Shown here: piece after piece, positions 2,461-63,782 of the stretch
Layout: each line of letters starts with the position of its first letter
Numbering within the stretch: the stretch's first letter is position 1
Notes under the pieces: generated by a model
What the model saw: the letters and a program-made list of their open reading frames with translations, nothing else
What the model was told of the DNA's origin: nothing
The model's database searches: none
Program-made: the position numbers and the translations under genes
NCBI RefSeq assembly: GCF_012910715.1
Contig: NZ_JABBHF010000008.1
Location: 62,001 to 126,000 of the forward strand
From: Flavivirga algicola
GTDB lineage: Bacteria > Bacteroidota > Bacteroidia > Flavobacteriales > Flavobacteriaceae
Length of the DNA: 64,000 nucleotides
Direction: 5' to 3'

Positions 2461-2498
2461 CCCCTTTTCATTTCTTTGGAAAGGGGCATCTTTTTTAA
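2461..2498. terminator. Bidirectional terminator hairpin
   Basis: CCCCTTT at 2461-2467 pairs with AAAGGGG at 2480-2486, followed by a T-run at 2491-2496; A-rich sequence beyond it would serve the other strand less well. It lies between the convergent MscS and LytTR genes and overlaps the last codons of the latter. Confidence 0.7.
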
Positions 2499-47576: not shown

Positions 47577-50500
47577 ATGGTTAAGAATGAAGTAAAAACA
47601 ACATGCTCTTATTGTGGCGTAGGATGTGGTATCATTGTTAAAAAAGACATTAATAATAAAGTTTTTGTCGAAGGTGATAAGGAGCATCCTGTTAATAAAG
47701 GTATGCTTTGTTCTAAAGGCATGAATTTGCATTATGTGGTAAACGACATATCCGACAGGATTTTATATCCAGAAATGCGGTGGAGTAGATCGCATCCGCG
47801 TGAACGCGTAAGTTGGGACGATGCTTTAGGTAGAGCGAGTCGTGTTTTTAAATCAATTATAAAAAAATATGGACCCGATAGTGTCGGGTTTTATGTGTCA
47901 GGGCAAAGCCTTACCGAAGAATATTATATAGCGAATAAACTAACCAAGGGATTTTTAGGAACCAATAATATAGACACTAATTCACGCTTATGTATGAGTT
48001 CTGCCGTAGTTGGTTATAAAAAAACATTTGGAGAAGATAGTGTCCCTATTTCTTATGAAGATATAGAATTGGCAGATTGCTTTTTAATTACAGGGGCAAA
48101 TCCAGCTTGGTGTCATCCAATCCTTTTTAGGCGCATAGAAAAGCGTAAAGAGGAAAATCCCAATGTTAAGATTATAGTTATTGATCCCCGTAAAACAGAC
48201 TCTGCGAATTTTGCGGATTTACATCTCCAATTACTTCCAGGAACAGATGTTGTACTTTATAATGCTATAGGAAGGCGTTTGTTTGAACGTGGTTTGATTG
48301 ATGAAAAATTTATAAAAAATCATACAGAGGGTTATGCGGCTTACAAAGACCTAATCTTTTCAACATCTATAAAACAAGCATCAAAGCTTTGTGGTGTACC
48401 GGAAAAGGATATTAAAAAAGCAGCAGATATTATAGGGCTTTCCAAAGGCTTTATTAGCATGTGGGCTATGGGGCTCAATCAAAGTGTTGTTGGAACCGAT
48501 AAGAATGTATCATTATTAAACCTTTCACTTATAACAGGTCAGATAGGTAAGCCAGGTTCTGGTCCTTTTTCGCTTACAGGACAACCCAATGCGATGGGTG
48601 GGCGTGAAGTAGGAGGAATGGCCAATTTATTGGCTGTTCATAAAGATTTAATGAATGAGGAACATAGGCGTGAAGTCGCTCAGTTTTGGGGTGTTGATAA
48701 AATATCAGACAAACCAGGTTATACAGCTACAGAAATGTTCGATGCTCTAGAAAGTGGTAAACTAAAAGCGGTATGGATTGCTTGTACTAATCCTTTGGTG
48801 AGTTTGCCTAATACGCATCAAATTGAACGGGCTATGAAAAAAGCCAAATTTGTGGTTGTTCAGGATATTTCATATAAATCGGATACTGTAGATTATGCCG
48901 ATTTAGTATTGCCAGCAGCAGGATGGTTGGAGAAAGAAGGCACGATGACGAATTCCGAAAGGCGTATTTCATACCTACCAAAAGAAATTGATGCACCAGG
49001 AGAAGCAAGACCAGATGTTGAAATTTTCTGTGACTTTGCACAACGTATGGGGTTCAGAGGGTTTAATTACAATAATGCCAGTGAGATATACGATGAGTAT
49101 GCATCCATGACCAAAGGAACCAATATTGATGTATCGTTTCTAAATTATGATAGGTTAAAGAGCGAGGGTACATTCCAGTGGCCCGTGCCAGAGCATAGAC
49201 ACCAGGGAACCTCGAGGCTTTTTGAAGATAAAAAGTTTTATACACCCAATGGAAAAGCACAGTTTAATCTGCCAAGCACGATTAAAAATACTTCAGTACA
49301 GCCAAGCGAGGATTTTCCATTAATTTTAACGACTGGACGTATTCGGGATCAATGGCATACGATGACCAAAACAGGAAAAGTATCCAGATTAAAAACACAT
49401 TATCCAACGCCAGTTTTAGAAATAAATCCAGTAGATGCTTATTTATGTAAATTAAAAGATGGTAGTATTGCTGAAATTAAAAGTGAAAATGGCGTTGTTA
49501 GAGTACGAGCTAAAATTACCGAAACCATAAAAAAAGGTGTGGTATTTTTACCGATGCACTGGGGTAAGCAACTTCAAAGTGATTTAAACAGAACGAACAA
49601 TTTAACGAATACACATATAGATCCAACATCTAAAGAACCCGATTTTAAGTTTACCTGTGTTTCAGTTACAAAATATAAAAAACCTGTAGAAAAAATAGTT
49701 ATTGTAGGAGCTGGAGCTGCGGCATTCAGGTTTGTACAAAATTACCGTGAGTTTAATGAAGTTGATGAAATTCATGTGTTTTCAAAAGAACCTAATTTAT
49801 TCTATAATAGAGTATTATTGCCCGAATATGTAACAGAGGAATTAACTTGGGAGCAACTTCTTAAGATTAAAAAATTAGAGCTTGATAAGTTGAACATCCA
49901 TGTGCATCCAGAAACGTCTATTTCTAATATAGATAAAGAAAATAAGGTTGTAACAGATAGTCATAACGAAAAACATACGTTTGATAAATTGATTTTAGCA
50001 ACTGGTAGTCGTGCTTTTATTCCGAAGGGAGTTCAAATAGACCTGCCGGGGCGTTTTACTATGCGTAATAAAATTGATGCAGATAAGTTCAAAGCTTATC
50101 TAGATGCCACAAACTTGCCGCCAGAAGAGCAACACGTTGTAATAGTTGGAGGAGGGTTGTTAGGTTTAGAACTGGCTGCTGCCATGAAACATAAGAATGC
50201 TAAAATTACTATTGTACAGAGGGCATCACGTTTGATGGAGCGTCAGTTGGATAAAGTTTCCAGTAAATTATTGGCTCTAGATGTTCAAGAACGCGGTATT
50301 CAGATTTATTTTGATAATGAGGTAAGTACTGTTTTTGACGATGAAGATACGGGTGAATTAAATATTACCTTAAAGAGTGGAAAGCTTATTACGGCCAATG
50401 CTATAGTGTATGCTATAGGTACCATACCTAACGTAGAAATAGCAAGAGAAAATGGTATTGATTGCAGTCGAGGAGTAAAAGTAAACCAGCATTTACAATC

Positions 50501-51098
50501 CTCGCACCCAGATATCTTTGCTATTGGTGAAATTGCCGAATTTAATAATCAGTTGTTCGGAATTACGTCGGCAGCAGAAGAACAAGCGACTATACTGGCA
50601 AACTTTATTGCAGGAGATATTAGCTGCTCATATAATGGTTCTGTTTTGATGAATATTTTAAAGTTTAATGACTTAAACCTTTGTAGCATAGGCGACATTA
50701 TTGTACCTGATAATGATGATAGCTATGAAGAAATAATTTTTACGGACATTAAAAAACGGTACTACAAAAAGTGTATTGTTAAAGATGATTTATTGATTGG
50801 AGCTGTTTTAATGGGAGATAAAAATGAATTTGCCGAGTTTAAAACCATGATTGAGAGTAAAATTGAAATGGCAGATAAGCGGAATACGCTACTTCGAGGG
50901 GCATCAAACGACACTCCCGTATTAGGTAAATTGATCTGCTCCTGTAGTCAGGTAGGTGCAGGCAATATAGAAGAAGCCATTGCCAAGGGCTGTACAGATT
51001 TTACAGAACTGTGTAACAAGACTGGTGCAGGCTTAGGTTGCGGAAGTTGTAAAACAGAAGTTAGAGAAATACTTCATAACGCAAAAGTATTAGCATAA
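47577..51098 (+). CDS. Assimilatory nitrate reductase fused to an FAD reductase and a BFD domain
   Basis: The 1173-residue protein has three parts. Residues 1-690 are the molybdopterin nitrate reductase (NasA/NarB type): CSYCGVGC (cysteines 10, 13, 17) with C45 for the [4Fe-4S] cluster, Mo-ligand cysteine about 139 in SRLCMSSAVV, GQPNAMGGREVGG. Residues about 700-1105 are a NirB-like FAD/NAD reductase (IVIVGAGAAAFRFVQNY, VVIVGGGLLGLELAAAM, FAIGEIAEF). Residues about 1118-1170 are a BFD [2Fe-2S] domain (CSCSQVGAGNIEEAI, GCGSCKTEV). Electrons from NAD(P)H could thus reach nitrate within one chain. Its stop overlaps the next start by one base. Confidence 0.93.
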   Translation: MVKNEVKTTCSYCGVGCGIIVKKDINNKVFVEGDKEHPVNKGMLCSKGMNLHYVVNDISDRILYPEMRWSRSHPRERVSWDDALGRASRVFKSIIKKYGPDSVGFYVSGQSLTEEYYIANKLTKGFLGTNNIDTNSRLCMSSAVVGYKKTFGEDSVPISYEDIELADCFLITGANPAWCHPILFRRIEKRKEENPNVKIIVIDPRKTDSANFADLHLQLLPGTDVVLYNAIGRRLFERGLIDEKFIKNHTEGYAAYKDLIFSTSIKQASKLCGVPEKDIKKAADIIGLSKGFISMWAMGLNQSVVGTDKNVSLLNLSLITGQIGKPGSGPFSLTGQPNAMGGREVGGMANLLAVHKDLMNEEHRREVAQFWGVDKISDKPGYTATEMFDALESGKLKAVWIACTNPLVSLPNTHQIERAMKKAKFVVVQDISYKSDTVDYADLVLPAAGWLEKEGTMTNSERRISYLPKEIDAPGEARPDVEIFCDFAQRMGFRGFNYNNASEIYDEYASMTKGTNIDVSFLNYDRLKSEGTFQWPVPEHRHQGTSRLFEDKKFYTPNGKAQFNLPSTIKNTSVQPSEDFPLILTTGRIRDQWHTMTKTGKVSRLKTHYPTPVLEINPVDAYLCKLKDGSIAEIKSENGVVRVRAKITETIKKGVVFLPMHWGKQLQSDLNRTNNLTNTHIDPTSKEPDFKFTCVSVTKYKKPVEKIVIVGAGAAAFRFVQNYREFNEVDEIHVFSKEPNLFYNRVLLPEYVTEELTWEQLLKIKKLELDKLNIHVHPETSISNIDKENKVVTDSHNEKHTFDKLILATGSRAFIPKGVQIDLPGRFTMRNKIDADKFKAYLDATNLPPEEQHVVIVGGGLLGLELAAAMKHKNAKITIVQRASRLMERQLDKVSSKLLALDVQERGIQIYFDNEVSTVFDDEDTGELNITLKSGKLITANAIVYAIGTIPNVEIARENGIDCSRGVKVNQHLQSSHPDIFAIGEIAEFNNQLFGITSAAEEQATILANFIAGDISCSYNGSVLMNILKFNDLNLCSIGDIIVPDNDDSYEEIIFTDIKKRYYKKCIVKDDLLIGAVLMGDKNEFAEFKTMIESKIEMADKRNTLLRGASNDTPVLGKLICSCSQVGAGNIEEAIAKGCTDFTELCNKTGAGLGCGSCKTEVREILHNAKVLA

Positions 51099-52528
51099 TG
51101 GAAGAACCATATAGATTAAGAATTAACGGGGGGGTTGTCTCACCAGGCGAGTTGAAATATATTTGCGAAGCCGCAGAAGGCTTAGGTTTGGATGCGATTT
51201 CTTTTGGTTCTCGACAAGACATTATATTTCCTGAAGAAATAGATAAAAGTAAGTTTAATAAATTTGATAAAATCCAATTTATCAAACCCAAGGCAGATGG
51301 TATAGAAAATATATCATCGTCTTATGTGTCTGCAGACATACTATCAAGTACCTCATGGCTTACCAGTGATAAGTATTTATATGTTATAGAGCAGTTTAAG
51401 CACAAACTAAGTTTAAGAGTGAATGTCACTGATCCCAAACAACGTTTGGTTCCGCTATTCACAGGTAATATAAATTTTATAGCATCAGGCCACGAAGATT
51501 ATTGGTATTTATACGTTAGGCTTCCTGGTTGGGAAAAGACACGCATGTATCCAGCACTCATTTATAGCTGGGATATGGATAAAATAGAACTTGCTATAGA
51601 AAATGTTCTACAAGAAGAACCAGAAACCATTGAAACACTTTTTGAATTGGTAAGCGATGCGGTCGACACCAATAACAGGACGGTAGACAAGCCTTTAGAA
51701 GTTCCTTTTTACCCATTTCCGTATTATGAGGGGATGAACCGTATTGGGCCAGATAGTTATTGGTTAGGACTATATTGGAGAAATAATAGGTACGATTTGG
51801 CCTTTTTAAAAGCGATGTGTGATTTATGTGCAGAAAATAAAATTGGTAAAATTTCGATTACGCCATGGAAATCCTTTATTGTTAAGGGAATTCCATCTAA
51901 GTCAAAATTACAATGGGAAAAGCTTTTAGGTAAATTTGGTATTAACGTACGCCATTCTATGTTAGAGATGAATTGGCATGTCCCAGTAAACGATAAAGAT
52001 GCCTTGAGTTTAAAAAAATATCTTGTTACTAATTTTGATCAAAACGATATTAGCACCTATGGATTGACCTTTGGTATTACGAGTTATGAGAGTGATACTT
52101 ATAATTTCACTTCTATTGTTATAGAGAAAAATAAACAACCAGACGCTATAGGAGATTTTAAAATAAGAGATACCTATAACCTATTATATGCTAAAAATTT
52201 CGATCCCAATACACTAGAATACATCATGCATGTTCAAGATGTGGATAAAGTTGAGTTGCCAGGGCTTCTAATGGAATTAAGCCAGTTGTATTTTGAGCAA
52301 CTTGGGACAGAACGCGAAGAGGAAAAAACCATAGAAGTGATCTCAGAGTATGTTGAAGAAGAAGTTTATCAATGTAAAGACTGTCTAACTGTTTATAATG
52401 AAGTTTATGGAGATGTCACACAAAATATAACACCAAATACATCTTTTGAAAGTCTCCCTGAAACCTATGAATGTTCCCTTTGTGAAGCACCAAAGAGTCG
52501 TTTTGAAAAGAAAGTGCTGGTAAAATAA
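51098..52528 (+). CDS. Nitrite/sulfite-reductase-like protein with C-terminal rubredoxin domain
   Basis: The 476-residue protein starts like a sirohaem reductase half (YRLRINGGVVSPGELKYICE) and has a second such segment (GKISITPWKSFIVKGI, about 250-266). The paired cysteines that bind the [4Fe-4S]-sirohaem centre are absent, so this part is probably not catalytic. The last 60 residues are a rubredoxin domain: CKDC (about 426-429) and CSLC (about 458-461), an iron site. It starts inside the stop of the nitrate reductase gene (TAATG), so it is made in step with it and probably feeds or structures that enzyme. Confidence 0.85.
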   Translation: MEEPYRLRINGGVVSPGELKYICEAAEGLGLDAISFGSRQDIIFPEEIDKSKFNKFDKIQFIKPKADGIENISSSYVSADILSSTSWLTSDKYLYVIEQFKHKLSLRVNVTDPKQRLVPLFTGNINFIASGHEDYWYLYVRLPGWEKTRMYPALIYSWDMDKIELAIENVLQEEPETIETLFELVSDAVDTNNRTVDKPLEVPFYPFPYYEGMNRIGPDSYWLGLYWRNNRYDLAFLKAMCDLCAENKIGKISITPWKSFIVKGIPSKSKLQWEKLLGKFGINVRHSMLEMNWHVPVNDKDALSLKKYLVTNFDQNDISTYGLTFGITSYESDTYNFTSIVIEKNKQPDAIGDFKIRDTYNLLYAKNFDPNTLEYIMHVQDVDKVELPGLLMELSQLYFEQLGTEREEEKTIEVISEYVEEEVYQCKDCLTVYNEVYGDVTQNITPNTSFESLPETYECSLCEAPKSRFEKKVLVK

Positions 52529-53012: not shown

Positions 53013-53111
53013 AAATTCAAAATTAACTATTCTTAAATATTTACTAAAAAAATTAAACCTTAAATTATTTGTAAGATTTGGTGTAAAACCATTCGTCGAC
53101 ACTTAATCGCA

Positions 53112-53178
53112 ATTCACCTACACTTAAATTCAGCCTAGCGAAGGAAAATAGTTGTATGTTCCAATTACATTATTTTTA
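53112..53178 (+). promoter_or_regulatory. LytTR-type direct-repeat site A and promoter of the H-NOX operon
   Basis: The 31-base element (53112-53142) starts ATTCACCTACA and ends CCTAGCGAA. Read on the minus strand it holds two 9-bp repeats, TCGCTAGGC and TAGGTGAAT, whose starts are 21 bases apart. A -7-like box TATTTTTA begins 29 bases past its end (53171-53178), 21 bases before the first ATG. The same element and spacing occur at 56590 and 63055. It suggests activation of this operon by its own LytTR regulator. Confidence 0.75.
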
Positions 53179-53198
53179 CAGTTACTTAAACCTATGTG

Positions 53199-53612
53199 AT
53201 GAAAAATAATTTAAAAGTGCTTCTTATTGAAGATGATATGATTGAAGTCATGAAATTTAACAGGGTTGTTACCTCTCTAGACCTTAAATGTAATACCGTT
53301 GAGGCAAATAATGGAGAAGAGGCTCTAAATATTTTAGAAAAAAAAGACGAATTACCTGACATAATTTTATTAGATTTAAACATGCCAAAAATTAATGGTA
53401 TGGAATTTTTGTCCATTTTAAAAGAAGATAAAAGCTTGCAACATATTCCTGCAATCATATTAACAACATCTAATAATCGAAAAGATTTGCTGGAATGTTA
53501 TAAACTAGGAATTGCAGGTTATATTTTAAAACCTTTAAAGTATGAAGACTATGTGACGAAAATAAAAAAGCTATTGGCATATTGGAGTATTAACGAATTA
53601 ATAAAAACTTAA
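53199..53612 (+). CDS. Single-domain CheY-like response regulator
   Basis: The start chosen is ATG 53199, three bases after a GTG in frame. The 137-residue protein is only a receiver: EDD at 11-13, phosphoacceptor aspartate 59 in IILLDLNMPK, threonine in ILTTSNN and lysine in YILKPL. It has no output domain, so it acts by protein binding or as a phosphate sink. It is the first gene after site A and is followed by the H-NOX gene four bases later. Confidence 0.93.
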   Translation: MKNNLKVLLIEDDMIEVMKFNRVVTSLDLKCNTVEANNGEEALNILEKKDELPDIILLDLNMPKINGMEFLSILKEDKSLQHIPAIILTTSNNRKDLLECYKLGIAGYILKPLKYEDYVTKIKKLLAYWSINELIKT

Positions 53613-53616
53613 ACGC

Positions 53617-54156
53617 ATGAAAGGAATTGTTTTTACAGAGTTTTTAGATCTGGTAGAACATAAGTTTGGCCTGGAAATGGTCGACACTATTATTTCACAA
53701 TCAGAATTGGAATCTGAAGGTATTTACACAGCTGTAGGGACTTATAAATTCTCTGAAATGCTGCAGCTTCTTAAAAATCTAAGCACTAATACCAATATTT
53801 CTATTGATGATTTGTTGCTCGTTTATGCAGAGCACTTCTTTAGTGTTTTAAAAGAGAGCTACCCAGATCTTATGTCAATGTATAAAGACCCCATAGATAT
53901 GTTGGCATCTATTGAAAATCATATACATGTTGAAGTTAGAAAAATTTATCCAGATGCTGAATTACCGACTTTTGTAGTGGAAGAAAAAACAAATAATTCA
54001 TTGATCATGGTTTATAAATCCAATAGAGCCATGCACCATTTTGGTTTAGGTTTAATGAATAAAACGTTTGAACATTTTAATTCTACAGCTTCAATCGTTT
54101 TGGAAAAAATTAAGGAAGATGGTACGGAAGTCAAGTTTATCATTAATAAAAATTAA
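53617..54156 (+). CDS. H-NOX haem-binding nitric oxide sensor
   Basis: The 179-residue stand-alone HNOB protein starts MKGIVFTEFLDLVEHKFG, as the family does. It has NHIHVEVRKIYPDAELPTF (101-119), where histidine 104 lines up with the proximal haem ligand by its distance to IYP. The haem-propionate motif YxSxR is present as YKSNR (133-137). There is no distal tyrosine that I can assign, which fits NO rather than O2 binding. Its stop overlaps the start of the kinase gene by one base (TAATG), the usual sign that it controls that kinase. Confidence 0.94.
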   Translation: MKGIVFTEFLDLVEHKFGLEMVDTIISQSELESEGIYTAVGTYKFSEMLQLLKNLSTNTNISIDDLLLVYAEHFFSVLKESYPDLMSMYKDPIDMLASIENHIHVEVRKIYPDAELPTFVVEEKTNNSLIMVYKSNRAMHHFGLGLMNKTFEHFNSTASIVLEKIKEDGTEVKFIINKN

Positions 54157-55370
54157 TGAGTCAAGATAACATTGACATACTTCAACGTGCTCTCAAAAGG
54201 GAAAAATCAGCTAGAAAAGCAGCAGAAAAGATACTGGAAGAAAAATCGTTAGAGCTATACAATACAGCTCAAAAATTAAAAGAAGCTAATGAAAAATTGG
54301 AATTGCTTCTCGAAGAAAAAACATCCCAGTTGCAAGGTGTTTTTGAAAATATTAATGATGCCTATTTAATAATGGATCTGGAAGGCAATGCCCTAAAAAT
54401 GAATGATGCAGCCATCGACTTATTTGGATATGATATTAATAAAGAGAAATTAAATGTTATAGACCTTATCTATAAACCAGATGCCAATTATGCATTTAAG
54501 TCATTTAGGGAATTAAGAAAAAAAGGTGCATTTACAGATTACACGGCTAGAATTATTACCAAAGATAAAAGTATTAAATGGGTGCATATAAATGCTAGTG
54601 TTATATACGATAAGAAAAAATTACCTATTGCAGCTCAAGGTATTATAAGAGATATTACAGAAGCAAAACGAACTGCTTCGTTGATAGAAGACCAAAAAAG
54701 GAAGTTAGCTAAAAGTAATGATGAGCTACAAGAGTATGCACATATAGTATCTCATGATTTAAAATCACCATTAAGGAGTATTAATGCCTTGGTTAGCTGG
54801 ATTAAAGAAGATAATGAAGGTAAATTAGATGCTGCTAGTCTGCAAAATTTCACACTTATAGAAACGACGTTAGAGAAAATGGAGCAGCTTATATCGGATG
54901 TGCTAAACTACTCGAGTATAGGTTCTGAAGAGAAAGAGAAAATAAATGTTGATTTAGAAATAGTGGTAAAGGATTTAGCTAAAATCCTTTATGTTCCAGG
55001 TCACGTTTCTATTAATATATTAGGTCCATTACCTAAGGTTAAAGGCTATAAAACAAAATTGCAGCAGTTATTCCAAAACCTGATAAGTAATGCCATTAAG
55101 TTTATAGATAAAGATAAAGGGTGTATCGATATCGAATATAAAGTATTAAAAAACTATTATCAGTTTTCTGTAAAAGATAATGGTATGGGAATAGATAAAC
55201 AGTATCACAAAAAAATATTCAAAATTTTTCATACTCTAAATGAGAGTAAAAACTCTACAGGTATAGGGCTTTCAATTGTTAAAAAAATTGTTGATTTACA
55301 TGATGGTGAAATTTGGTTGGAAAGTGAGCCTAAAGTGGGGACTACATTCTTTTTCACATTAAAAAAATAG
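54156..55370 (+). CDS. Soluble PAS-domain histidine kinase (H-NOX-linked)
   Basis: The 404-residue kinase has no membrane helix. A coiled coil (1-60) leads to a PAS domain (about 61-175, VFENINDAYLIMDLEGNALK), a HisKA helix with IVSHDLKSPLRSIN (histidine 200) and an HATPase domain (FQNLISNAIKF, DNGMGIDKQY, STGIGLSIVKK). It should be inhibited or activated by the H-NOX protein when NO binds. Being without its own receiver, it needs external partners, which the neighbouring CheY, Hpt and LytTR genes supply. Confidence 0.93.
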   Translation: MSQDNIDILQRALKREKSARKAAEKILEEKSLELYNTAQKLKEANEKLELLLEEKTSQLQGVFENINDAYLIMDLEGNALKMNDAAIDLFGYDINKEKLNVIDLIYKPDANYAFKSFRELRKKGAFTDYTARIITKDKSIKWVHINASVIYDKKKLPIAAQGIIRDITEAKRTASLIEDQKRKLAKSNDELQEYAHIVSHDLKSPLRSINALVSWIKEDNEGKLDAASLQNFTLIETTLEKMEQLISDVLNYSSIGSEEKEKINVDLEIVVKDLAKILYVPGHVSINILGPLPKVKGYKTKLQQLFQNLISNAIKFIDKDKGCIDIEYKVLKNYYQFSVKDNGMGIDKQYHKKIFKIFHTLNESKNSTGIGLSIVKKIVDLHDGEIWLESEPKVGTTFFFTLKK

Positions 55371-55371
55371 C

Positions 55372-55692
55372 ATGATGGAGCAACCAAATCTATCCTATAT
55401 TTATAGTATGTCTGGAGGAGATAAGGACTTTGAAAAGAAGCTTATCAATATTATTAAAGCTGAATTTCCAGAAGAAAAAAAAACATATTATAAGAACATA
55501 AATTCTGATAATTTTAATAAAGCTTCAGAAAATGTACACAAACTTAAGCATAAAATTAGTATTTTAGGACTTGAAAAAAGTTATGAGATGGCTGTCGATT
55601 ATGAAAATAATTTAAAAAAAGCCAGTACTGTGGGCAGAAAAGATTTTGATGCCATTTTACAGCTCATAACAGATTTCATAAATACCTTATAA
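55372..55692 (+). CDS. Histidine phosphotransfer (Hpt) protein
   Basis: The 106-residue helical protein has the Hpt motif ENVHKLKHKISILGLE, with phosphorylatable histidine about 56. It follows the kinase by one base and precedes the LytTR regulator by nine. A free Hpt between a kinase and two receivers indicates a branched or stepwise phosphorelay. Confidence 0.85.
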   Translation: MMEQPNLSYIYSMSGGDKDFEKKLINIIKAEFPEEKKTYYKNINSDNFNKASENVHKLKHKISILGLEKSYEMAVDYENNLKKASTVGRKDFDAILQLITDFINTL

Positions 55693-55701
55693 ACATTTTT
55701 T

Positions 55702-56415
55702 ATGAACTGTATTATTATTGATGACGAAGCGACAGCCAGAGCCATTATCTCTCAGTTGTGTTCTAATATTTCAAGTTTAAATGTTCTTGAGGCATTTCCT
55801 AATGCCATTGAAGCTATTAAATATTTAAACCAAAATGATGTAGATCTTATTTTTCTCGATATTCATATGCCAGATTTTACAGGTTTTGACTTTATTCAAA
55901 CACTTAAAAATCCACCTAAGATAGTTTTAACGACTTCGGATACTAATTTTGCCATTGAAGCATTTGAGTACGGTTGTATTGTAGATTATTTAGTAAAACC
56001 AATTACTTTACCACGTTTTGAAAAGGCGATTCAAAAAGCTGAATCTACCACATCTAAAATGGTCGAAAATACAACACCAATAGATGCTGTAGAAACAGCT
56101 TCAGGCAATGATTTATATATAAACATAGATAGGCGTTTAATAAAATTAGATATTCCCAGTATTTATCTTATTGAAGCTAAGGGAGATTATATCAATGTAA
56201 AAACAGAAGATAAAAATTATACGGTACATTCAACTTTAAAGAAGATTGAAGAAAAACTGCCAGACTCCTTATTCCTTAAAGTACATCGCTCATACGTTAT
56301 CAATATAAAAAAAATCATTGATATTGAGGACAATAGTGTACTGATAAAAAAAGATGTGATTCCTGTAAGTAGATCTAATAGACCTGAGTTAATGAAACGC
56401 TTGAATTTACTTTAA
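55702..56415 (+). CDS. LytTR-family response regulator of the H-NOX operon
   Basis: The 237-residue protein has a receiver (DDE at 7-9, aspartate 53 in LIFLDIHMPD, lysine in YLVKPI) and a LytTR DNA-binding domain (about 133-236: IYLIEAKGDYINVKTE, FLKVHRSYVINIKKI, IPVSRSNRPELMKRL). It is the only DNA-binding output of this operon. The three 21-bp-offset direct-repeat sites at 53112, 56590 and 63055 are its likely targets, including its own operon. Confidence 0.94.
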   Translation: MNCIIIDDEATARAIISQLCSNISSLNVLEAFPNAIEAIKYLNQNDVDLIFLDIHMPDFTGFDFIQTLKNPPKIVLTTSDTNFAIEAFEYGCIVDYLVKPITLPRFEKAIQKAESTTSKMVENTTPIDAVETASGNDLYINIDRRLIKLDIPSIYLIEAKGDYINVKTEDKNYTVHSTLKKIEEKLPDSLFLKVHRSYVINIKKIIDIEDNSVLIKKDVIPVSRSNRPELMKRLNLL

Positions 56416-56589
56416 GCTTAGGAATAATATTAAGCCAAAAGTGATTTTGGTACTAGATAAAATCACATAATTAGAGCCATATATTGGAATAATGAAATAT
56501 TCCACTTAGTTCTATACGAGTCCCACATTCAATCTAAATATAATATCCCATCTAACTTAGTCAAAATCATTCATCCTTAGTATACACCC

Positions 56590-56656
56590 ATTCACCTACA
56601 CTTAATTTTCGTCTACCGAAAATAAAAATATATGCCCTTATAGTCATATAGCTTTG
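56590..56656 (+). promoter_or_regulatory. LytTR-type direct-repeat site B and promoter of the T9SS protein gene
   Basis: The 31-base element (56590-56620) starts ATTCACCTACA and ends TCTACCGAA. The minus strand reads TCGGTAGAC, then TAGGTGAAT at a 21-base offset. The -7 box TAGCTTTG (56649-56656) starts 29 bases past its end, with the ATG 20 bases further on. Confidence 0.8.
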
Positions 56657-56676
56657 TGGTATTAAATATAAATATC

Positions 56677-59256
56677 ATGAAAAAAATATTACTATTACTT
56701 GTGTTCGTTTACGTTAATGTATACACGCAAGATATTCCGTTTAACTGTGATTATAATGCCTATTTATTTCAGTATAATGATGTATATGCAATAGATTTAG
56801 CCTCTGGTAATTCATATACAGTCGCAACCGATGTAACCGAAGGATCTATTAATGCTGCAGCATATAATCCAGCAGATGGATTTATCTGGGGTTCGTTAAG
56901 CTATCCAGCAAAATCTATAGTGAGAATAGGGAAAGATTTTTCAACCCTGACATTTTATGTAGATGAATTGCCTTCAGGAAATAGATATGTTGGAGATGTT
57001 AGTGCTGAAGGGGTCTATTATTTAAAAGGAGGGGGTACAACTTACTATACCATAGATGTAAACCCAGATTCTGATAACTATGGAGGTTATATGGCAACAA
57101 ATAATTTATCAAAAAGCTTAAGTATTCACGACTGGGCATTTAATGCTGTTGATAATAAATTATATACAGTAGAAAAGAAAACCAATATTTTATATCGTAT
57201 AGATGCAGATAATGGCATCATAGAAAGTTTAGGCGAAGTCCCAATCTTATCTGGTTTAAATTATACATATGGTGCTGTTTATTTTGATGCATCTGGACGT
57301 TTTTACGTGTCAGCCAATCAAACGGGAACGATTTATGTTATCCAAAACGTACAGGATTTAGATAGTAGCAGCTCCATGGAATCTAACCTTTTCGCTTTCG
57401 GGCCTTCGAGCTCTCAAAATGATGGTGCCCGTTGTCCAACGGCTCCAGTACCACAAGAAGACTGTACCAATGGAATCGACGATGATGATGATGGCTTAAT
57501 AGATTGTGAAGATCCGTCATGTTCTGGTTATGCCGCTTGCCCAGTTATAGAAGCGCCAACATCGAGTGGGAACTCTGGAGGCTTAGAAAGTAACAACAGG
57601 CTGTCTGAACAAATTAATAAACGAAACTTTAATAGAGCAAAGAATAATTATAAGTTCGATAAGGTGTCAGCAAAGCGATTTGTCAAATCAGCTAAGTATG
57701 GTAAAAAAACAGGGAAGAATGGCCTACAATTATCTGATCTTGTGCCATTGGAAGTTTTAAATGAAGACCGAGCAATAGAATCATCTCCATCAGATTTGTT
57801 AAATATTACAAATGCCACAGATGTTTATTCGGTAGATTACATGAAAGCTGGCGAAGCTGTAGCGTCTATACTTATTCTTAAAACTGACAAAGGTGTTTAT
57901 GAGCATACTAAATACATTTGTGACAGATTATTAGGTGCTGAATTAATTTCTGTGTCTACTATAGAAATAAAAGAACAAAAATTTATAAAGGCACTCATCA
58001 AAAATATAGATGGTTCTTTAGAGTTTGTATTAAGCTTATCGGCAAAACCAATTAATAGTGGTGCTAATTTTGGCATTGAAAGTCATTGGAATTTAGATAA
58101 ATATGAAGATAATGTGCCGTTTTATAACTTCCAAATATGGTCCAATTCTTTAGATGATCTATTGCAACTTGGAGAGGAAGTTGTAAGGTTATTAGATGTT
58201 CAAAAACCTGTGATCAGTTATAACAACTCAGCACCTCCAACGGTTTTTGTTAGAAAAGGTAAATACCATCATGGTAAACTCGATTTACAAATAGTTAATA
58301 CCAATAGGAGTGAAGCCGTTGCTTTTGATGGTGGTTTAAGAACTACCGAGACGAAAACTGTAGAATATGTATCGTCTACTATCGATTTATATGGTAATTA
58401 TATTACAGATGTAGAAGTGAATGCAGGAAACCTGTTTGATATTGGTTTTAGAATAGGTGATGGCATACAAACCCCAGATGACCTATTCATGTCTGATGGG
58501 CCTTGGGGATACGATGATGCAGCATCAAGTACCATGGTTACGGCTTATAATGTAAAACCTAATGAAGAAGCATTTGATGGAGATGAGTTTCCTATTGAAC
58601 GTAATATAGAGTTGGTGGCCAATACTAAAGAATATATAGCAGCTTATAGAGCTTTAACCCCGAAGTTTAATCCTGTAGATCTATCAAATTATAATAGTTT
58701 TCAATTTAAAGCTAAAGGCACTGGGACTTTAATTATTAGACTGGTAAAAGAAAGCATAGCTAACTGGGAAGAACAGTATCAGACCAGCATAGCTTTAACC
58801 AATACATTACAAGACTATAGTGTGCCGTTTTCTGAATTTACATCCATAAATGGATATGATTTTGAAAAACATGACGTAACCTCTATCGTTTTTACCATGT
58901 TAGCTGAAACAGGAGAGGTTGAGACTAAAGAGATGACTTTGCAACAACTGCGTTTTTCAATAAGTAATACACTCTCGGTAGAATCATTGAATGGTGTTGA
59001 ATCATATAAAGCATGGGCGTCTCCAAATCCTATGGGTTCAGGTACAACGATACATTTTACAAGTCAGAATTCAGAGCCAATAGAACTATTGCTCTACAAC
59101 CAATTAGGTAGTTTGGTTAAAAAGACGATTTATAGAGCTGTTACTGGTAAAAATGAAATAAAATTAGGAAGAAAAGGCTTAATGTCTGGAATTTATTTCT
59201 GTAATGTAAAAAGTAAAACAACGACCTATAAAACAATAAAATTATTGGTAAAATAA
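56677..59256 (+). CDS. Large secreted protein with T9SS sorting domain
   Basis: The start chosen is ATG 56677, giving signal peptide KKILLLLVFVYVNVYTQ; an earlier GTG at 56656 lies in the promoter. The 859-residue protein has a beta-propeller-like N-terminal region (about 20-255, DUF6923-like: YAIDLASGNSYTVATD, LYRIDADNGIIESLG), an acidic Ca-binding-type motif (NGIDDDDDGLIDCEDPSC), a middle domain of about 250 residues without a family I know, a carbohydrate-binding-like beta region (about 610-775, FQFKAKGTGTLIIRLVKES) and a C-terminal type A sorting domain (SPNPMGSGTTIHF to IKLLVK). It should be exported by type IX secretion and attached to the cell surface or released. Confidence 0.85.
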   Translation: MKKILLLLVFVYVNVYTQDIPFNCDYNAYLFQYNDVYAIDLASGNSYTVATDVTEGSINAAAYNPADGFIWGSLSYPAKSIVRIGKDFSTLTFYVDELPSGNRYVGDVSAEGVYYLKGGGTTYYTIDVNPDSDNYGGYMATNNLSKSLSIHDWAFNAVDNKLYTVEKKTNILYRIDADNGIIESLGEVPILSGLNYTYGAVYFDASGRFYVSANQTGTIYVIQNVQDLDSSSSMESNLFAFGPSSSQNDGARCPTAPVPQEDCTNGIDDDDDGLIDCEDPSCSGYAACPVIEAPTSSGNSGGLESNNRLSEQINKRNFNRAKNNYKFDKVSAKRFVKSAKYGKKTGKNGLQLSDLVPLEVLNEDRAIESSPSDLLNITNATDVYSVDYMKAGEAVASILILKTDKGVYEHTKYICDRLLGAELISVSTIEIKEQKFIKALIKNIDGSLEFVLSLSAKPINSGANFGIESHWNLDKYEDNVPFYNFQIWSNSLDDLLQLGEEVVRLLDVQKPVISYNNSAPPTVFVRKGKYHHGKLDLQIVNTNRSEAVAFDGGLRTTETKTVEYVSSTIDLYGNYITDVEVNAGNLFDIGFRIGDGIQTPDDLFMSDGPWGYDDAASSTMVTAYNVKPNEEAFDGDEFPIERNIELVANTKEYIAAYRALTPKFNPVDLSNYNSFQFKAKGTGTLIIRLVKESIANWEEQYQTSIALTNTLQDYSVPFSEFTSINGYDFEKHDVTSIVFTMLAETGEVETKEMTLQQLRFSISNTLSVESLNGVESYKAWASPNPMGSGTTIHFTSQNSEPIELLLYNQLGSLVKKTIYRAVTGKNEIKLGRKGLMSGIYFCNVKSKTTTYKTIKLLVK

Positions 59257-59281
59257 TTAATCACTACTCTAATTTCATTTA

Positions 59282-59318
59282 AAAGGTAAAAGGCACTATG
59301 TTTTTTACCTTTTTTTGT
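59282..59318 (+). terminator. Terminator after the T9SS protein gene
   Basis: AAAGGTAAAA (59282-59291) pairs with TTTTACCTTT (59303-59312), followed by more T. Confidence 0.75.
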
Positions 59319-59393
59319 TTTTATATAGGAATTTAGTTTTGTCTTGATTGTAGTTGTTGGTAATTAATAAATAAGGTATTATTTTGCCATAGA

Positions 59394-59561
59394 ATGGTAT
59401 TTACGAAAGAAATAAAAGGGAACGAATTATATGTTTACGCCAATGGAAAATTAATTTATAAACGTTGGCTTGATACGGGGCAATCTTTTATTTTTGATAA
59501 ACTAGCTTATAATAAATATACCTTGGTTTCAATTAAGGATCATAAAAAACAAGATTCCTAA
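59394..59561 (+). CDS. Small conserved-looking protein (55 residues)
   Basis: ATG 59394 opens a frame reading MVFTKEIKGNELYVYANGKL, then IYKRWLDTGQSFIFDK and a short polar end. It looks like a compact beta-protein; I have a sense of similar short proteins (YANGKLIYKRWLDTG) in other Flavobacteriaceae but cannot name a family. It lies in an otherwise empty 330-base gap before a Crp-type gene. Confidence 0.6.
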   Translation: MVFTKEIKGNELYVYANGKLIYKRWLDTGQSFIFDKLAYNKYTLVSIKDHKKQDS

Positions 59562-59587
59562 ACTTATTATCCATCTCAGAATTGCTT

Positions 59588-60166
59588 ATGTCACAAGATA
59601 GAAATTCATTAATAGATTTTATTCTAAGTATTGTTCCAATTTCTCAGGAAGAGTCACAGTACATAGCGTATAGTTTTCATCCTATTAAAATAAAAAAAGG
59701 AGATTTTCTACTGCGAGAGGGGGCTATAAGTAATGATTATTTTTATTTAGAGAAAGGCCTTATGCGTACTTTTCTTTTTGATTTGGAAGGCAATGAAATA
59801 ACCACCGATTTTTTTCTCGAAAACAATATTGTTTTAGAAGTCACGTCATTTTTTAATAGCGTTCGTTCTGAAGCTAATATTCAGGCAATAACAGATTGTA
59901 TTGGATATAGGATTTCCTATGAGCAACTCAATACACTTTTTCATCAAAAACCAGCTTTTCGTGATTTTGGGCGCGCCATTTTAGTAAAAGAGTTTATAGC
60001 TTCCCAAAAACGAAATTATAGCATGATTAACAGAACGGCAGAGCAGCGCTATCAGGAATTATTAAAGACAAAGCCACAAATCTTAAAACATGCACATTTA
60101 AAATATATAGCTTCCTATTTAGGAATTACAGATAGTACACTAAGCCGGTTGAGAAGAAAAGTATAA
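59588..60166 (+). CDS. Crp/Fnr-family transcriptional regulator
   Basis: The start chosen is ATG 59588 (MSQDRNSLIDF); a TTG lies two codons earlier. The 192-residue protein has the jelly-roll domain (KKGDFLLREGAISNDYFYLE, FDLEGNEITTDFFLENNIVL) and a helix-turn-helix in HLKYIASYLGITDSTLSRLR. No iron-sulfur cysteines are present, so it is not an Fnr oxygen sensor. The next gene, a seven-helix membrane protein, is probably its target. Confidence 0.9.
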   Translation: MSQDRNSLIDFILSIVPISQEESQYIAYSFHPIKIKKGDFLLREGAISNDYFYLEKGLMRTFLFDLEGNEITTDFFLENNIVLEVTSFFNSVRSEANIQAITDCIGYRISYEQLNTLFHQKPAFRDFGRAILVKEFIASQKRNYSMINRTAEQRYQELLKTKPQILKHAHLKYIASYLGITDSTLSRLRRKV

Positions 60167-60239
60167 ATTTACATTTCTTGCCTTTTGTCAAGTAATTTGT
60201 GTCGATTTCTATAGAAGTTTGTGCTATAAAAATTATTTT

Positions 60240-60932
60240 ATGGCAGAGATATCTATTTTAGTAACTGTAAGCTTCGTTTTTACCACATTGGTTACCCTAT
60301 GGTTTTTTTACAAAGCTTCAAAGCATAGAAAAGCCCTTTTCGGTATTATTATTTGGATGGCCGTTTTAAGCATGCTAGGCTTTTCAGGATTTTATAGGAA
60401 TACAGAAACGTTTCCACCAAGGTTTGCTTTTTTAATTGGACCAGGGATTCTTTTTGTTTTGCTCATTTTTTTAATCAAAAAGGACCATAAATTTTCTGAT
60501 ACGGTAAATTTAAAATGGCTGACCTTGCTACATGTTATTAGGATTCCTGTCGAAATTGTTCTCTTTTATGCATTTAGGGCAGGTTTGATACCAGAACTTA
60601 TGACTTTTGAAGGCTATAATTTCGATATTCTTTCTGGGCTTTCGGCACCAGTCATATATTATTTGGTTTTTATTAAAAAAAAGATAGGTTATAAGGTACT
60701 TTTATTATGGAATATAATCTGTTTAGTTCTACTTTTAAATATTTTAACGATTGCAGTTTTAAGTGCTCAAACCCCTTTTCAAAAATTGGCGTTCGACCAA
60801 CCAAATATTGGTGTAACGTATTTTCCGTTTGTATGGCTTCCAGCTGTGATTGTTCCTATGGTTTTATGGTCTCATTTGGTTGGAATAAGAACTTTGTATA
60901 AACATAAGCGCAGTTCTAATAAAATTGTGTGA
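60240..60932 (+). CDS. Seven-helix membrane protein of unknown function
   Basis: The start chosen is ATG 60240 (MAEISILVTVSFVF); a GTG seven codons earlier has no support. The 230-residue protein has about seven hydrophobic helices, short loops and a polar motif in YRNTETFPPRFAFLIGPG. I do not recognise a characterised family. It follows the Crp-type gene by 73 bases, a pairing often seen in Flavobacteriaceae. Confidence 0.75.
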   Translation: MAEISILVTVSFVFTTLVTLWFFYKASKHRKALFGIIIWMAVLSMLGFSGFYRNTETFPPRFAFLIGPGILFVLLIFLIKKDHKFSDTVNLKWLTLLHVIRIPVEIVLFYAFRAGLIPELMTFEGYNFDILSGLSAPVIYYLVFIKKKIGYKVLLLWNIICLVLLLNILTIAVLSAQTPFQKLAFDQPNIGVTYFPFVWLPAVIVPMVLWSHLVGIRTLYKHKRSSNKIV

Positions 60933-60947
60933 TTGAATTCTTAGGAG

Positions 60948-63011
60948 TTATAGTTTCATAAAAACAGGCTTATCAAACACATACCATTTAAATCTCATGC
61001 CAATTTCGGTGAACGTAAAACCAGCAGCTGTTGTTGAGGCAATATTACTTCGGGTACCATAAATATTTAATAAAGCACGTTCACTAAATTTATAACCCAA
61101 TTTTCCTTGAGCACGATAGGTGCTTTGCTTGTTATTGTTTTCTATGAACTGGTAACCAGTTGCAGCCGTTAACTCATAAAACCATTCTTTAGGTCTTGCT
61201 ATGGTTTCGTCTTTTATCAGGTTAATAAAAATTTCGGTTGCATGAAACCGTTCTGGACTAAAATAAATGTTTGGTAATTGGTTTTTAAAAGTGATGTATT
61301 GGTAGTTAAAACCAGCTTTTAAAGCTGGTTTTTTTAGTATATTATAATATAAAGAGGTAAACAATAGATTTCTAGTGTTATTATCGTTTTGAGAGGTGTA
61401 ATAGTACTGTGTAAACCAGCCTAGATTAAAGTTGGTACTAACATTATAATTAGCATAAAAATGATTCATAACGATTTCACGATTCAATAAATCAGCATTA
61501 AAATTTTGGATCTCACGTTTGTAGCCTACATCCAAAATTTGCAATTTAAAAGGTTTGATATGAAACGATACATCGGTTAGTAATTGGGTGTAATCTTGCG
61601 TATTGGCTTTTGCGGAACTAATACCAGTTGTTCCTTTAAAAGTAATATTAGGTAGTAATTGATAGGCTAGTCCCAACAACATATTATTAGATGTTGCTTT
61701 GTTATCGGTTATCGAGTTACTTGTGGTTCTGTATTCATAATTGGCTAGCCATTTAAATTTTGTAGAGGTAGGAAATTCTAAATTTGTATTAAAAGTGTAG
61801 GCTTCGTTATCGCCATTATCAAAAGAATAAGCTCCTTTGGTTTCTAATAAAGGAGTAAAGTGCGTGTTTAGACTTTTAATAAACTGGGAGGCATCTTTTT
61901 GTTTTTTGTAAAAACGAAGGGTGTTATTGGCAGATTGATAGGCCTCTTCATATTGTCCTAAAGCCTTTAAAGCGTTTGCTTTTCCTAAGTTACCATCAAA
62001 AGACGCGCTATCATTTTTTAAAATGTTGTTATAGTCGACTAAACTCTTTTTAAAATCGCTCTTATAGATGTTCAACGTAGCTCTTAAAACTAGAACCCAA
62101 TTGGAGTTGGAAGTGTTTTCTGTAAGTTTGCCTATTAAAACCTGAGCTAGTTTGTATTTTTTATTCCAAATTAAAGCTTGAATATAACGCTCTTGGGTTT
62201 GTTTTACAATAGAGGAGTCTTTTAAGTGTGGTATGGTATCATAAGCTTCTTTACTAAATTTTAAAGCAGTTTTATTTTTATGATTCAAATGACTTACCAA
62301 AGCAAGTCCATTTAATGAAATAGCTTTATTGGCTTTATCACGACCAATAACTTTATATGTGCTTTCAGCTTTATCATAAGCTTCCATAATTAGATAAAGA
62401 TTGGCCAAGTTGATTAAGGTTTCTTTTTCGTTTTCAAAAAGAATCAGGTTTTCTTTTAAAAGTTTTTCAGCTTCCGTATAATTTTGTTGCTGTTGGTTTT
62501 GATAGGCATAACCTAAATATATATACTTTTTAGAGGTTAAAGCATTTTTATTGTTTGGTGATACTTCCAAAGCCTTATTAACATATAGTAAAGCATCATC
62601 GTATATTTTTAGATTGGATAAGGTATTGGCATAACCTAAAAGTGTTGGAAAACTTTGACCGTTTTCTCCGATAAGCATTTCATAATATGTTTTGGCTTTA
62701 CCATAGCTTTTGTCCCATAGCAGCGATTCGGCGTAATTTAGTTTAATCTCAAAATTATTAGGATAGGCTTTTAATAAGTCAGAGAAAATAGAAAGTGCTT
62801 TTTTAGGATTTCCATTTAGACCTACAGCTCGCCCATAACACAGTTTAGCGGTTTTATTCTTAGGATGGTCATTTAAAACAGTTTTAAAATAAATTTCGGC
62901 TGCTTCGTATTTACCAGTTTCCAGATAAGTAAAGCCTTGTTGCATGTTTTGAGACATACTATGTATGCTAAAGAACAAGAATATTACGGCTGCATATGAT
63001 TTAAAATTCAT
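60948..63011 (-). CDS. TPR protein with YaiO-type outer-membrane barrel
   Basis: The 687-residue protein has a signal peptide (KSYAAVIFLFFSIHSMSQ), then about ten TPR units (20-390: YLETGKYEAAEIYFKTVLND, AKLCYGRAVGLNGNPKKALS, NLANLYLIMEAYDKAESTYK). A C-terminal YaiO-like barrel of about 290 residues follows, with alternating strands ending FKWYVFDKPVFMKL. A TPR scaffold joined to an outer-membrane barrel recalls BcsC and PgaA, the exporters of exopolysaccharides. It is divergent from the STAS/flippase operon, with site C between them. Confidence 0.87.
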   Translation of the reverse strand: MNFKSYAAVIFLFFSIHSMSQNMQQGFTYLETGKYEAAEIYFKTVLNDHPKNKTAKLCYGRAVGLNGNPKKALSIFSDLLKAYPNNFEIKLNYAESLLWDKSYGKAKTYYEMLIGENGQSFPTLLGYANTLSNLKIYDDALLYVNKALEVSPNNKNALTSKKYIYLGYAYQNQQQQNYTEAEKLLKENLILFENEKETLINLANLYLIMEAYDKAESTYKVIGRDKANKAISLNGLALVSHLNHKNKTALKFSKEAYDTIPHLKDSSIVKQTQERYIQALIWNKKYKLAQVLIGKLTENTSNSNWVLVLRATLNIYKSDFKKSLVDYNNILKNDSASFDGNLGKANALKALGQYEEAYQSANNTLRFYKKQKDASQFIKSLNTHFTPLLETKGAYSFDNGDNEAYTFNTNLEFPTSTKFKWLANYEYRTTSNSITDNKATSNNMLLGLAYQLLPNITFKGTTGISSAKANTQDYTQLLTDVSFHIKPFKLQILDVGYKREIQNFNADLLNREIVMNHFYANYNVSTNFNLGWFTQYYYTSQNDNNTRNLLFTSLYYNILKKPALKAGFNYQYITFKNQLPNIYFSPERFHATEIFINLIKDETIARPKEWFYELTAATGYQFIENNNKQSTYRAQGKLGYKFSERALLNIYGTRSNIASTTAAGFTFTEIGMRFKWYVFDKPVFMKL

Positions 63012-63054
63012 GAGCGATTTTTAGTACTTGCAAGTTAAGCAATAGATTTCAATC

Positions 63055-63122
63055 ATTCACCTACAGCAAACTGCAACTCACCGAACTTGATCTATAATTT
63101 TAATAATTACGGAGCATCTTTA
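63055..63122 (+). promoter_or_regulatory. LytTR-type direct-repeat site C, between the YaiO-type and STAS genes
   Basis: The 31-base element (63055-63085) starts ATTCACCTACA and ends CTCACCGAA. The minus strand reads TCGGTGAGT, then TAGGTGAAT at a 21-base offset. A weak -7-like CATCTTTA (63115-63122) begins 30 bases past its end. The site lies 44 bases upstream of the divergent YaiO-type gene, so it could serve both directions. Confidence 0.7.
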
Positions 63123-63161: not shown

Positions 63162-63440
63162 ATGGCACTTAAAATTACAGAACAAAACGGAACATTTTTA
63201 ATAGAAGGAACTATTAACACTACGACAGCAATGAATTTTCAAAATCATTTGGAAGCCATTTTAAATAGACGCAATATGCTTACTATAGATATTGAAAACG
63301 TAACAGAGATTGATGCTAGTGGTATGAAAGCACTAAGAGCACTTTACGGTAATGCTTTAATTTATAACAGACCATTTTACATTATTGGTACGGGCTGTAA
63401 GGAAATCTATGATGATTTTACATTTACAGATGCCGCATAA
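63162..63440 (+). CDS. STAS-domain protein
   Basis: The 92-residue protein is a lone STAS domain (anti-sigma-factor antagonist-like): FLIEGTINTTTAMNFQNHLE, LTIDIENVTEIDASGMKALR with the serine-containing DASG loop that is phosphorylated in SpoIIAA-type proteins. No RsbW-type kinase is adjacent. It starts the rightward operon after site C. Confidence 0.85.
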   Translation: MALKITEQNGTFLIEGTINTTTAMNFQNHLEAILNRRNMLTIDIENVTEIDASGMKALRALYGNALIYNRPFYIIGTGCKEIYDDFTFTDAA

Positions 63441-63473
63441 TTGTTACTTAATATAAATCCAAATCTAGATATT

Positions 63474-63782
63474 ATGAACTTCGAAATAATAAACAATAAA
63501 GGCGTTTTTGAAATACATGGTGATTTTACAAAAGCGCACACCAATCAGGTTGCCAATTATTTTAACAATCTGCTAGACAAGTATTATGAGATTGTTATTT
63601 GTCTTAAACAAGTTAAATGTATAGATGATAAGGCTTTGAATGTTATGAGGTTTATCGTAGCAAAGGCTAAAAGACGAAGTAAAATATTATTTGTTTTGGG
63701 AAAAGATAACAAACGTATTAACAAACAATTTAAAACTGCTAACCTCAATAATATTTTTAAAAATGATTACGATAGTAAATAA
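63474..63782 (+). CDS. Second STAS-like protein, divergent
   Basis: The start chosen is ATG 63474 (MNFEIINNKGVFEIHGDF). The 102-residue protein has the strand-helix pattern of a STAS domain, VICLKQVKCIDDKALNVMRF replacing the DxSG loop: the serine position is aspartate, so it cannot be phosphorylated in the usual way and may mimic the phosphorylated state. A lysine/arginine-rich end follows. It overlaps the next gene by 20 bases. Confidence 0.7.
   Translation: MNFEIINNKGVFEIHGDFTKAHTNQVANYFNNLLDKYYEIVICLKQVKCIDDKALNVMRFIVAKAKRRSKILFVLGKDNKRINKQFKTANLNNIFKNDYDSK

Follow-up and report, generated by a model that had tools for sequence, protein, structure and literature searches.

The present study examined a 64,000-nucleotide stretch of the Flavivirga algicola genome (contig NZ_JABBHF010000008.1, positions 62,001 to 126,000; hereafter the window), in which three 31-base-pair (bp) elements precede an operon encoding an H-NOX protein, the gene of a surface protein with a type IX secretion system (T9SS) sorting domain, and an operon encoding STAS-domain proteins and a polysaccharide flippase. 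We propose that these elements are very probably the operators by which the LytTR response regulator of the same gene cluster activates both its own operon and exopolysaccharide genes, most likely as one regulator turning on the H-NOX operon, a probable nitric oxide sensor operon, and the surface-sugar genes together in marine flavobacteria.

The elements occupy positions 53112-53142, 56590-56620 and 63055-63085, each opening with ATTCACCTACA and closing with CGAA (ending at 53142, 56620 and 63085). They are followed, 29, 29 and 30 bp past their last base, by the -7-like boxes TATTTTTA (53171..53178, 59 bp from 53112), TAGCTTTG (56649..56656, upstream of the T9SS gene) and CATCTTTA (63115..63122, 60 bp from 63055), all on the plus strand. 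The matrix derived from these sites and their orthologues describes a direct repeat of period 21, W-C-C-A-T-T-C-R-T-C-K-A-C-A-S, with a looser second copy; this 9 + 12 bp arrangement lies within the range of LytTR operators (9-11 bp repeats separated by 11-13 bp), and all 69 of 69 pairs of neighbouring matches less than 120 bp apart were spaced by 21 bp. The operator of the receiver/H-NOX operon (53088..53145, plus strand) comprises three half-sites at 53088, 53109 and 53130 (ACCATTCGT, GCAATTCAC and TCAGCCTAG), the strongest pair being 53088/53109 (48.7 bits at 53091) and the 53112 element representing the second pair, 53109/53130 (20.2 bits). The half-site ATTCGTCGACACTTA at 53091, 21 bp upstream of 53112, is stronger than the 53112 element. 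The operator of the T9SS surface protein gene (56566..56623, plus strand) has half-sites at 56587 and 56608 and a weak distal one at 56566, with scores of 33.4 bits at 56590 and 17.5 bits at 56569. The third, between the TPR gene and the STAS operon (63052..63088, plus strand; 38.2 bits), has half-sites at 63052 and 63073, and 63055 alone among the three window sites is a simple pair. A preliminary description of the window had reported the three elements as LytTR-type direct repeats of 9 + 12 geometry with a -7-like box 29-30 bp downstream, in an activator position. Re-reading of the sequence, conservation in orthologues and cross-trained matrices confirm that the elements are real, lie where they had been placed and are not due to chance; the spacing and the boxes are as described, and the placement upstream of the -7 box suits an activator. 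Its two-repeat anatomy applies at 63055 and has to be revised to a three-half-site array at 53112 and to a pair with a weak third half-site at 56590, and its minus-strand repeat type, TnGGTnrAn, agrees with both halves of the 56590 and 63055 elements and only poorly with the second half at 53112 (the reverse complement of CTAGCGAA).

Conservation was assessed by using the LytTR protein (55702) as query in a scan of genome contigs, which yielded 560 relatives, the best 80 loci of which (77-96% identical) were used. According to their titles these belong mostly to Flavobacteriaceae genera, including Flavivirga, Winogradskyella, Algibacter, Psychroserpens, Dokdonia and Aquimarina. Taking the best tblastn match per locus, the LytTR, HPt and kinase genes were found in 80 of the 80 loci (LytTR, as the query, by construction), the receiver in 79, H-NOX in 78, the T9SS protein in 65, the TPR protein in 57 and STAS in 40, with a gene order largely that of the window. 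Excluding 13 T9SS matches that started past query residue 25 left 52 T9SS promoters, so that this row is absent in 28 of the 80 loci, and the STAS row is absent in 40. A site scoring >12 bits was present in 78/79 receiver, 50/52 T9SS and 39/40 STAS orthologous promoters, every one on the plus strand; the promoters without such a site belong to loci L048 (where the receiver match lies on the opposite strand), L053, L059 and L035. Two matches 21 bp apart, equivalent to three half-sites, were found in 53/78 receiver, 9/50 T9SS and 0/39 STAS promoters.

Over the window, locus L111 and the 80 loci (3.3 million positions, both strands), 371 matches exceeded 12 bits compared with 0 in reversed sequences, using a matrix that was refined jointly on all three promoter sets and thus trained on most of these same sites. 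Matrices trained on single promoter sets, with the window and locus L002 excluded, gave 53091, 56590 and 63055 higher scores than any of 20 shuffle scans in three of three trainings, and 53112 and 56569 in two of three each, the site at 53112 falling below the null with the STAS-trained matrix (-0.1 vs 0.6) and that at 56569 with the T9SS-trained one (9.4 vs 10.6). The STAS-trained matrix placed 36/53 T9SS promoters above the best reversed control, compared with 51/53, 40/41, 79/80, 40/41 and 79/80 in the remaining five train/test combinations; the cross-training sites are only partly independent because the matrix had been refined on the three sets together. The significance of the element derives from its conservation at orthologous promoters and not from the 11-mer, for which four window matches with at most one mismatch compare with 1.41 expected, a count that 6 of 100 shuffles reach and that is too weak to serve as sole evidence.

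The elements also keep a regular distance to the promoter. Measured from the penultimate half-site, the -7 box stands at 59-60 bp or, with one 21-bp repeat more, at 80-81 bp (80 = 59 + 21), and these offsets place the element just upstream of the core promoter. The sequence TAnnTTTG, published as the sigma-A -7 box at positions -12 to -5 (PMC9723704), occurs exactly at 59, 60, 80 or 81 in 43 of 47 distinct T9SS promoters (offset 80 in 23, 59 in 17 and 60 in 3) and at control offsets in 0, and exactly at these offsets in 10/78 receiver and 0/39 STAS promoters. Allowing one mismatch, the numbers rise to 47/47 T9SS, 44/78 receiver and 27/39 STAS promoters, with control offsets ten bases nearer giving 2, 1 and 1, respectively. 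A TTG in the -33 zone was not enriched (7/115 promoters vs 13.1 expected). With TAnnTTTG at -12 to -5, the proximal half-site pair would lie at roughly -70 to -40. Each half-site (W-C-C-A-T-T-C-R-T-C) would take one LytTR domain, the 21-bp repeat setting the protomers on the same face of the DNA, and the proximal pair would sit just upstream of the would-be -33 element, with the TAnnTTTG-type box at a fixed distance beyond. This position of the pair and the fixed -7 box suggest that the regulator most likely activates sigma-A promoters without a -33 element.

A sequence-only covariance model (R1), comprising 57 stretches (six from the own genome and 51 of 61 picked), was used to scan the own genome (5.02 Mb; 150 of 2026 first-look candidates scored) and, with stricter filtering, 60 genomes including it. 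The own genome contained five matches with E <1e-3, at C36:118588, 115088, 127284, 125053 and 134477, all within 19.4 kb (C36:115088-134511). Three of these are the window's, and two lie just outside it before glycosyltransferase genes (L111:7382, Glycos_transf_1; L111:14573, Glycos_transf_2), where CAATTTTA and TACTTTTG, respectively, were noted by eye at offset 60. Because the model already contained these five sites or their neighbours, what the scan adds is the absence of any comparable score elsewhere in the genome. A sixth match, C5:83484 (E=0.017), is antisense within an open reading frame (ORF) and was rejected, and a minus-strand match near L111:14425 (15.4 bits), with one clear half-site and no -7 box by eye, was left uncounted. 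The local regulon of the preliminary description therefore stands in that nothing outside one 19.4-kb stretch scores alike, and has to be extended past the window, which holds three of the five sites; likewise the element is not scattered at random through the genome and is present at its orthologous promoters, two of the points on which that description had proposed to judge it.

Across the 60 genomes the site (E <=0.01) occurred in 23 and the LytTR orthologue (<=1e-60) in 24, with 22 genomes having both, one the site only (G014, 80% complete), two the regulator only (G029 and G059) and 35 neither (Fisher 4e-13, uncorrected for relatedness). Relaxing the threshold reveals a site in G029 too (E=0.046), next to the TPR gene. 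Of 67 sites listed, 59 shared a contig with the LytTR gene at a distance of no more than 26 kb, five lay on other contigs, two distant on the same contig and one in G014. Among viral contigs, nine stretches fitted a pattern and none was confirmed.

Known LytTR sites consist of 9-11-bp repeats 11-13 bp apart, in the account of PMC4847170 without a common sequence. LytTR regulatory systems, which include predicted Bacteroides examples, often use ACC[AG]CTTA with 12 bp between repeats, about 10 bp from the -35 region (PMC6193735). The sites found here resemble those described for HdrR/BrsR of Streptococcus mutans and predicted for Bacteroides thetaiotaomicron and B. ovatus in having two repeats of mostly 9 + 12 bp and, as in HdrR/BrsR-type systems, an operator upstream of the -35 region of the regulator's own operon; the TATCTTTG -7 box of the Bacteroides examples is a further likeness (PMC6193735). 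In contrast to LytTR regulatory systems as portrayed there, the half-site is ACCATTCGT and not ACC[AG]CTTA, three-half-site arrays occur, and a REC-LytTR protein accompanied by H-NOX, kinase and HPt proteins replaces the LytTR/membrane-protein pair. YpdB and AgrA sites are direct repeats as here, those of AgrA centred near -60, with other sequences and other signals (PMC4847170, PMC4227749). AlgR of Pseudomonas aeruginosa is also a LytTR response regulator of exopolysaccharide genes, and its box, CCGTTCGTC, matches the leading half-site at 53089-53097 in 8/9 positions; AlgR boxes, in that account, need not be direct repeats with 12-bp spacing, and several are distant from the start, whereas a strict 21-bp register beside the promoter is seen here (PMC4064291). 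Exact CCGTTCGTC was found in 8/371 leading half-sites and 8-9 of its 9 positions in 129/371, making the half-site similar to the AlgR box and not identical. The preliminary description had considered the core to deviate from known LytTR sites and to be possibly lineage-specific, a view that arose because the minus strand was read; since the plus-strand leading half-site CCATTCGTC is one base from CCGTTCGTC, the core is not clearly lineage-specific and the claim loses much of its footing.

Several observations weigh against the elements being operators of this LytTR regulator. Agreement with the general LytTR consensus is only moderate and not clearly superior to reversed controls: the sites score 11.0 of 16 on WMMGTTNRW vs 9.5 for the best reversed control (plus-strand register best), they score 8.42 on ACCRCTTAN, lower than the reversed control at 10.35, and the promoter-proximal window half-sites match 4-5 of 8 consensus positions; the LytTR assignment accordingly derives from geometry, conservation and linkage to the regulator, and not from a classical core. 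A structure model of the LytTR protein (12 sequences) had a mean predicted local distance difference test score (pLDDT) of 61, with residues 203-237 and other LytTR stretches <50, and was not used. The -7 rule fails in part, only 44/78 receiver and 27/39 STAS promoters complying with it. The regulator of G059 (45% identity) is without a convincing site, and the sole strict matches in G020 and G038 lie 258 kb and 113 kb, respectively, from the regulator, G020 having weaker matches near it. The regulator, sites and TPR gene are together absent from G010, which shows cluster loss only. Moreover, the 60 genomes are non-independent samples, and the receiver, H-NOX, kinase, HPt and LytTR genes travel together, so that co-occurrence alone cannot single out LytTR.

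The proposed binder is encoded at 55702..56415 on the plus strand (Pfam LytTR 2.8e-21, Response_reg 1.2e-18, both above cut-off). In a sequence search of solved structures, the 60 of 129 matches listed all fell in its receiver part (query residues 1-142). We consider it rather improbable that the elements are real operators of a different protein, such as any of the remaining 19 LytTR proteins or a DNA-binding protein of the cluster that escaped recognition. The genome does encode 20 LytTR proteins, yet only the gene at 55702 has a convincing site within 1.5 kb. None was found in the 1.5-kb flanks of the other 19, where the best match scored 12.9 bits (L126) compared with 8.7 for the control; these include the second LytTR gene of the window (2495-3211, minus strand). 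Sites also cluster around this particular orthologue, with 59 of the 67 listed near it, and of the genes compared across loci, the LytTR gene alone encodes a DNA-binding domain, apart from a Crp-like gene that is not conserved. The Crp-like gene and a membrane protein gene lie at 59582-60932, between the T9SS and TPR genes. The Crp-like protein (59582) was rejected as the binder, with matches in 4/80 loci, one at 83% identity (L002) and three at 28-32%.

Repression in place of activation, with nitric oxide relieving or imposing it once LytTR is bound, is conceivable and on balance unlikely. LytTR proteins can repress, PlnD being termed a repressor (PMC2714321) and rhlA being repressed by AlgR (PMC4064291), and the 63052 operator overlaps what is probably the promoter of the divergent TPR gene. 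Against repression, the sites keep a fixed helical phase upstream of the -7 box without covering it, and the -33 TTG is not enriched. The constant distance to the -7 box might alternatively mean that the elements are conserved parts of the promoters, for instance a sequence recognised by an alternative sigma factor, with no dedicated regulator involved. This we regard as very improbable given that the box is of the sigma-A type (PMC9723704), that the distance varies by one whole 21-bp repeat and that 35 of the 36 genomes without a LytTR orthologue are also without sites. Chance or repeated low-complexity sequence, which the shuffles equalling the 11-mer count would allow, is refuted by conservation at three orthologous promoter sets, the zero reversed-control matches and the recovery of the sites by cross-trained matrices, and its likelihood is practically nil.

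Activation by the LytTR regulator would be fed by the products of its own operon. Upstream of the LytTR gene and also on the plus strand, this encodes a stand-alone receiver domain protein as its first gene (53199..53612; Pfam Response_reg 2.2e-23; ATG start taken at 53199), the H-NOX protein (53617..54156; HNOB 1.3e-39), a PAS histidine kinase (54156..55370; HATPase_c 2.2e-26, HisKA 8.9e-9, PAS) and a probable HPt phosphotransfer protein (55372..55692; Hpt 7.9e-4, 20.1 bits, below the curated cut-off of 24.6). The H-NOX gene adjoins the histidine kinase gene, as expected of an H-NOX pathway, and an H-NOX match was present in 78/80 loci; in locus L027, which has the LytTR, kinase, HPt and receiver genes and the sites, tblastn gave no match to H-NOX. 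HIHxEV and the Y and S of YxSxR, the H-NOX motif, are kept in at least 95% of 78 H-NOX sequences and the R less often, the HPt stretch VHKxKHKI in at least 95% of 81 sequences, and LytTR D53 in at least 98% of 81. Genes resembling nitrate/nitrite reductases were noted by eye immediately upstream of the operon (47577-52528).

The presence of H-NOX, kinase, receiver, HPt and LytTR in one operon suggests a multistep relay, in which phosphate would probably pass from the H-NOX-linked histidine kinase through the stand-alone receiver and the HPt protein to LytTR D53. With such a phosphorelay the output would respond to nitric oxide, which we infer to be the signal driving the regulon. H-NOX/histidine-kinase biofilm pathways likewise have H-NOX beside a kinase, and in Vibrio fischeri an HPt domain connects H-NOX with the syp polysaccharide genes (PMC8738867). 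Unlike in the H-NOX biofilm pathways, the output here would be a LytTR regulator with mapped candidate operators, in Flavobacteriaceae.

The predicted targets are the regulator's own operon (autoregulation through the three-half-site array), the T9SS surface protein, the STAS/flippase operon and the two glycosyltransferase genes, which together would form an extracellular-polysaccharide regulon. The secreted surface protein with its T9SS sorting domain is encoded at 56680..59256 (plus strand; DUF6923 5.1e-22, Por_Secre_tail 5.2e-8) and two STAS-domain proteins at 63162..63782 (plus strand; STAS 1.3e-6, the second 6.4e-4 with 19.9 bits, below the cut-off of 22.6), followed by the polysaccharide flippase, which starts at 63763 and runs out of the window (Polysacc_synt_3 9.7e-12). 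The divergent TPR gene (60948..63011, minus strand; Pfam TPR families) is possibly a second target of the 63052 operator. Orthologues also preserve a stretch like TTGCAAGTTA ahead of the STAS site (63029-63038), possibly the promoter of this TPR gene.

Sites in relatives also lie upstream of other polysaccharide genes, including those of a UDP-glucose/GDP-mannose dehydrogenase (L017), outer-membrane efflux proteins (L017 and L045), a GNVR-domain protein under the Pfam cut-off (L056) and a Wzy_C protein (L040). Given this variety, the motif seems to track the regulator and not one target gene. Among 362 matches in the 80 loci, 63 precede unnamed ORFs and 20 have no ORF of about 80 amino acids within 330 bp; ten proteins behind unnamed sites were run against Pfam, two of them without any match. 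In several loci (L018:4036, L006:3907, L050:6282 and similar) sites precede small ORFs of 97-132 amino acids upstream of the receiver gene, and those tested (L018 and L006) had no Pfam match.

In a literature search mostly covering papers outside subscription, we found no account of this regulon and no LytTR operator or H-NOX output described for Flavobacteriaceae; two papers, PMC6769237 and PMC8396549, contain both H-NOX and LytTR. The regulator, its predicted operator sequence and a short list of targets can now be named, ready for direct testing. It may equally well prove true as not that the system is a family-wide, nitric oxide-responsive exopolysaccharide regulon of the Flavobacteriaceae, in which an H-NOX multistep phosphorelay would lead to a LytTR activator, 21-bp half-sites would be gained and lost singly with the -7 box shifting by one repeat, and the element would have been recruited before unrelated polysaccharide loci across genera. 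The variation in half-site number at constant helical register offers a natural series for how LytTR proteins activate Bacteroidota-type promoters.

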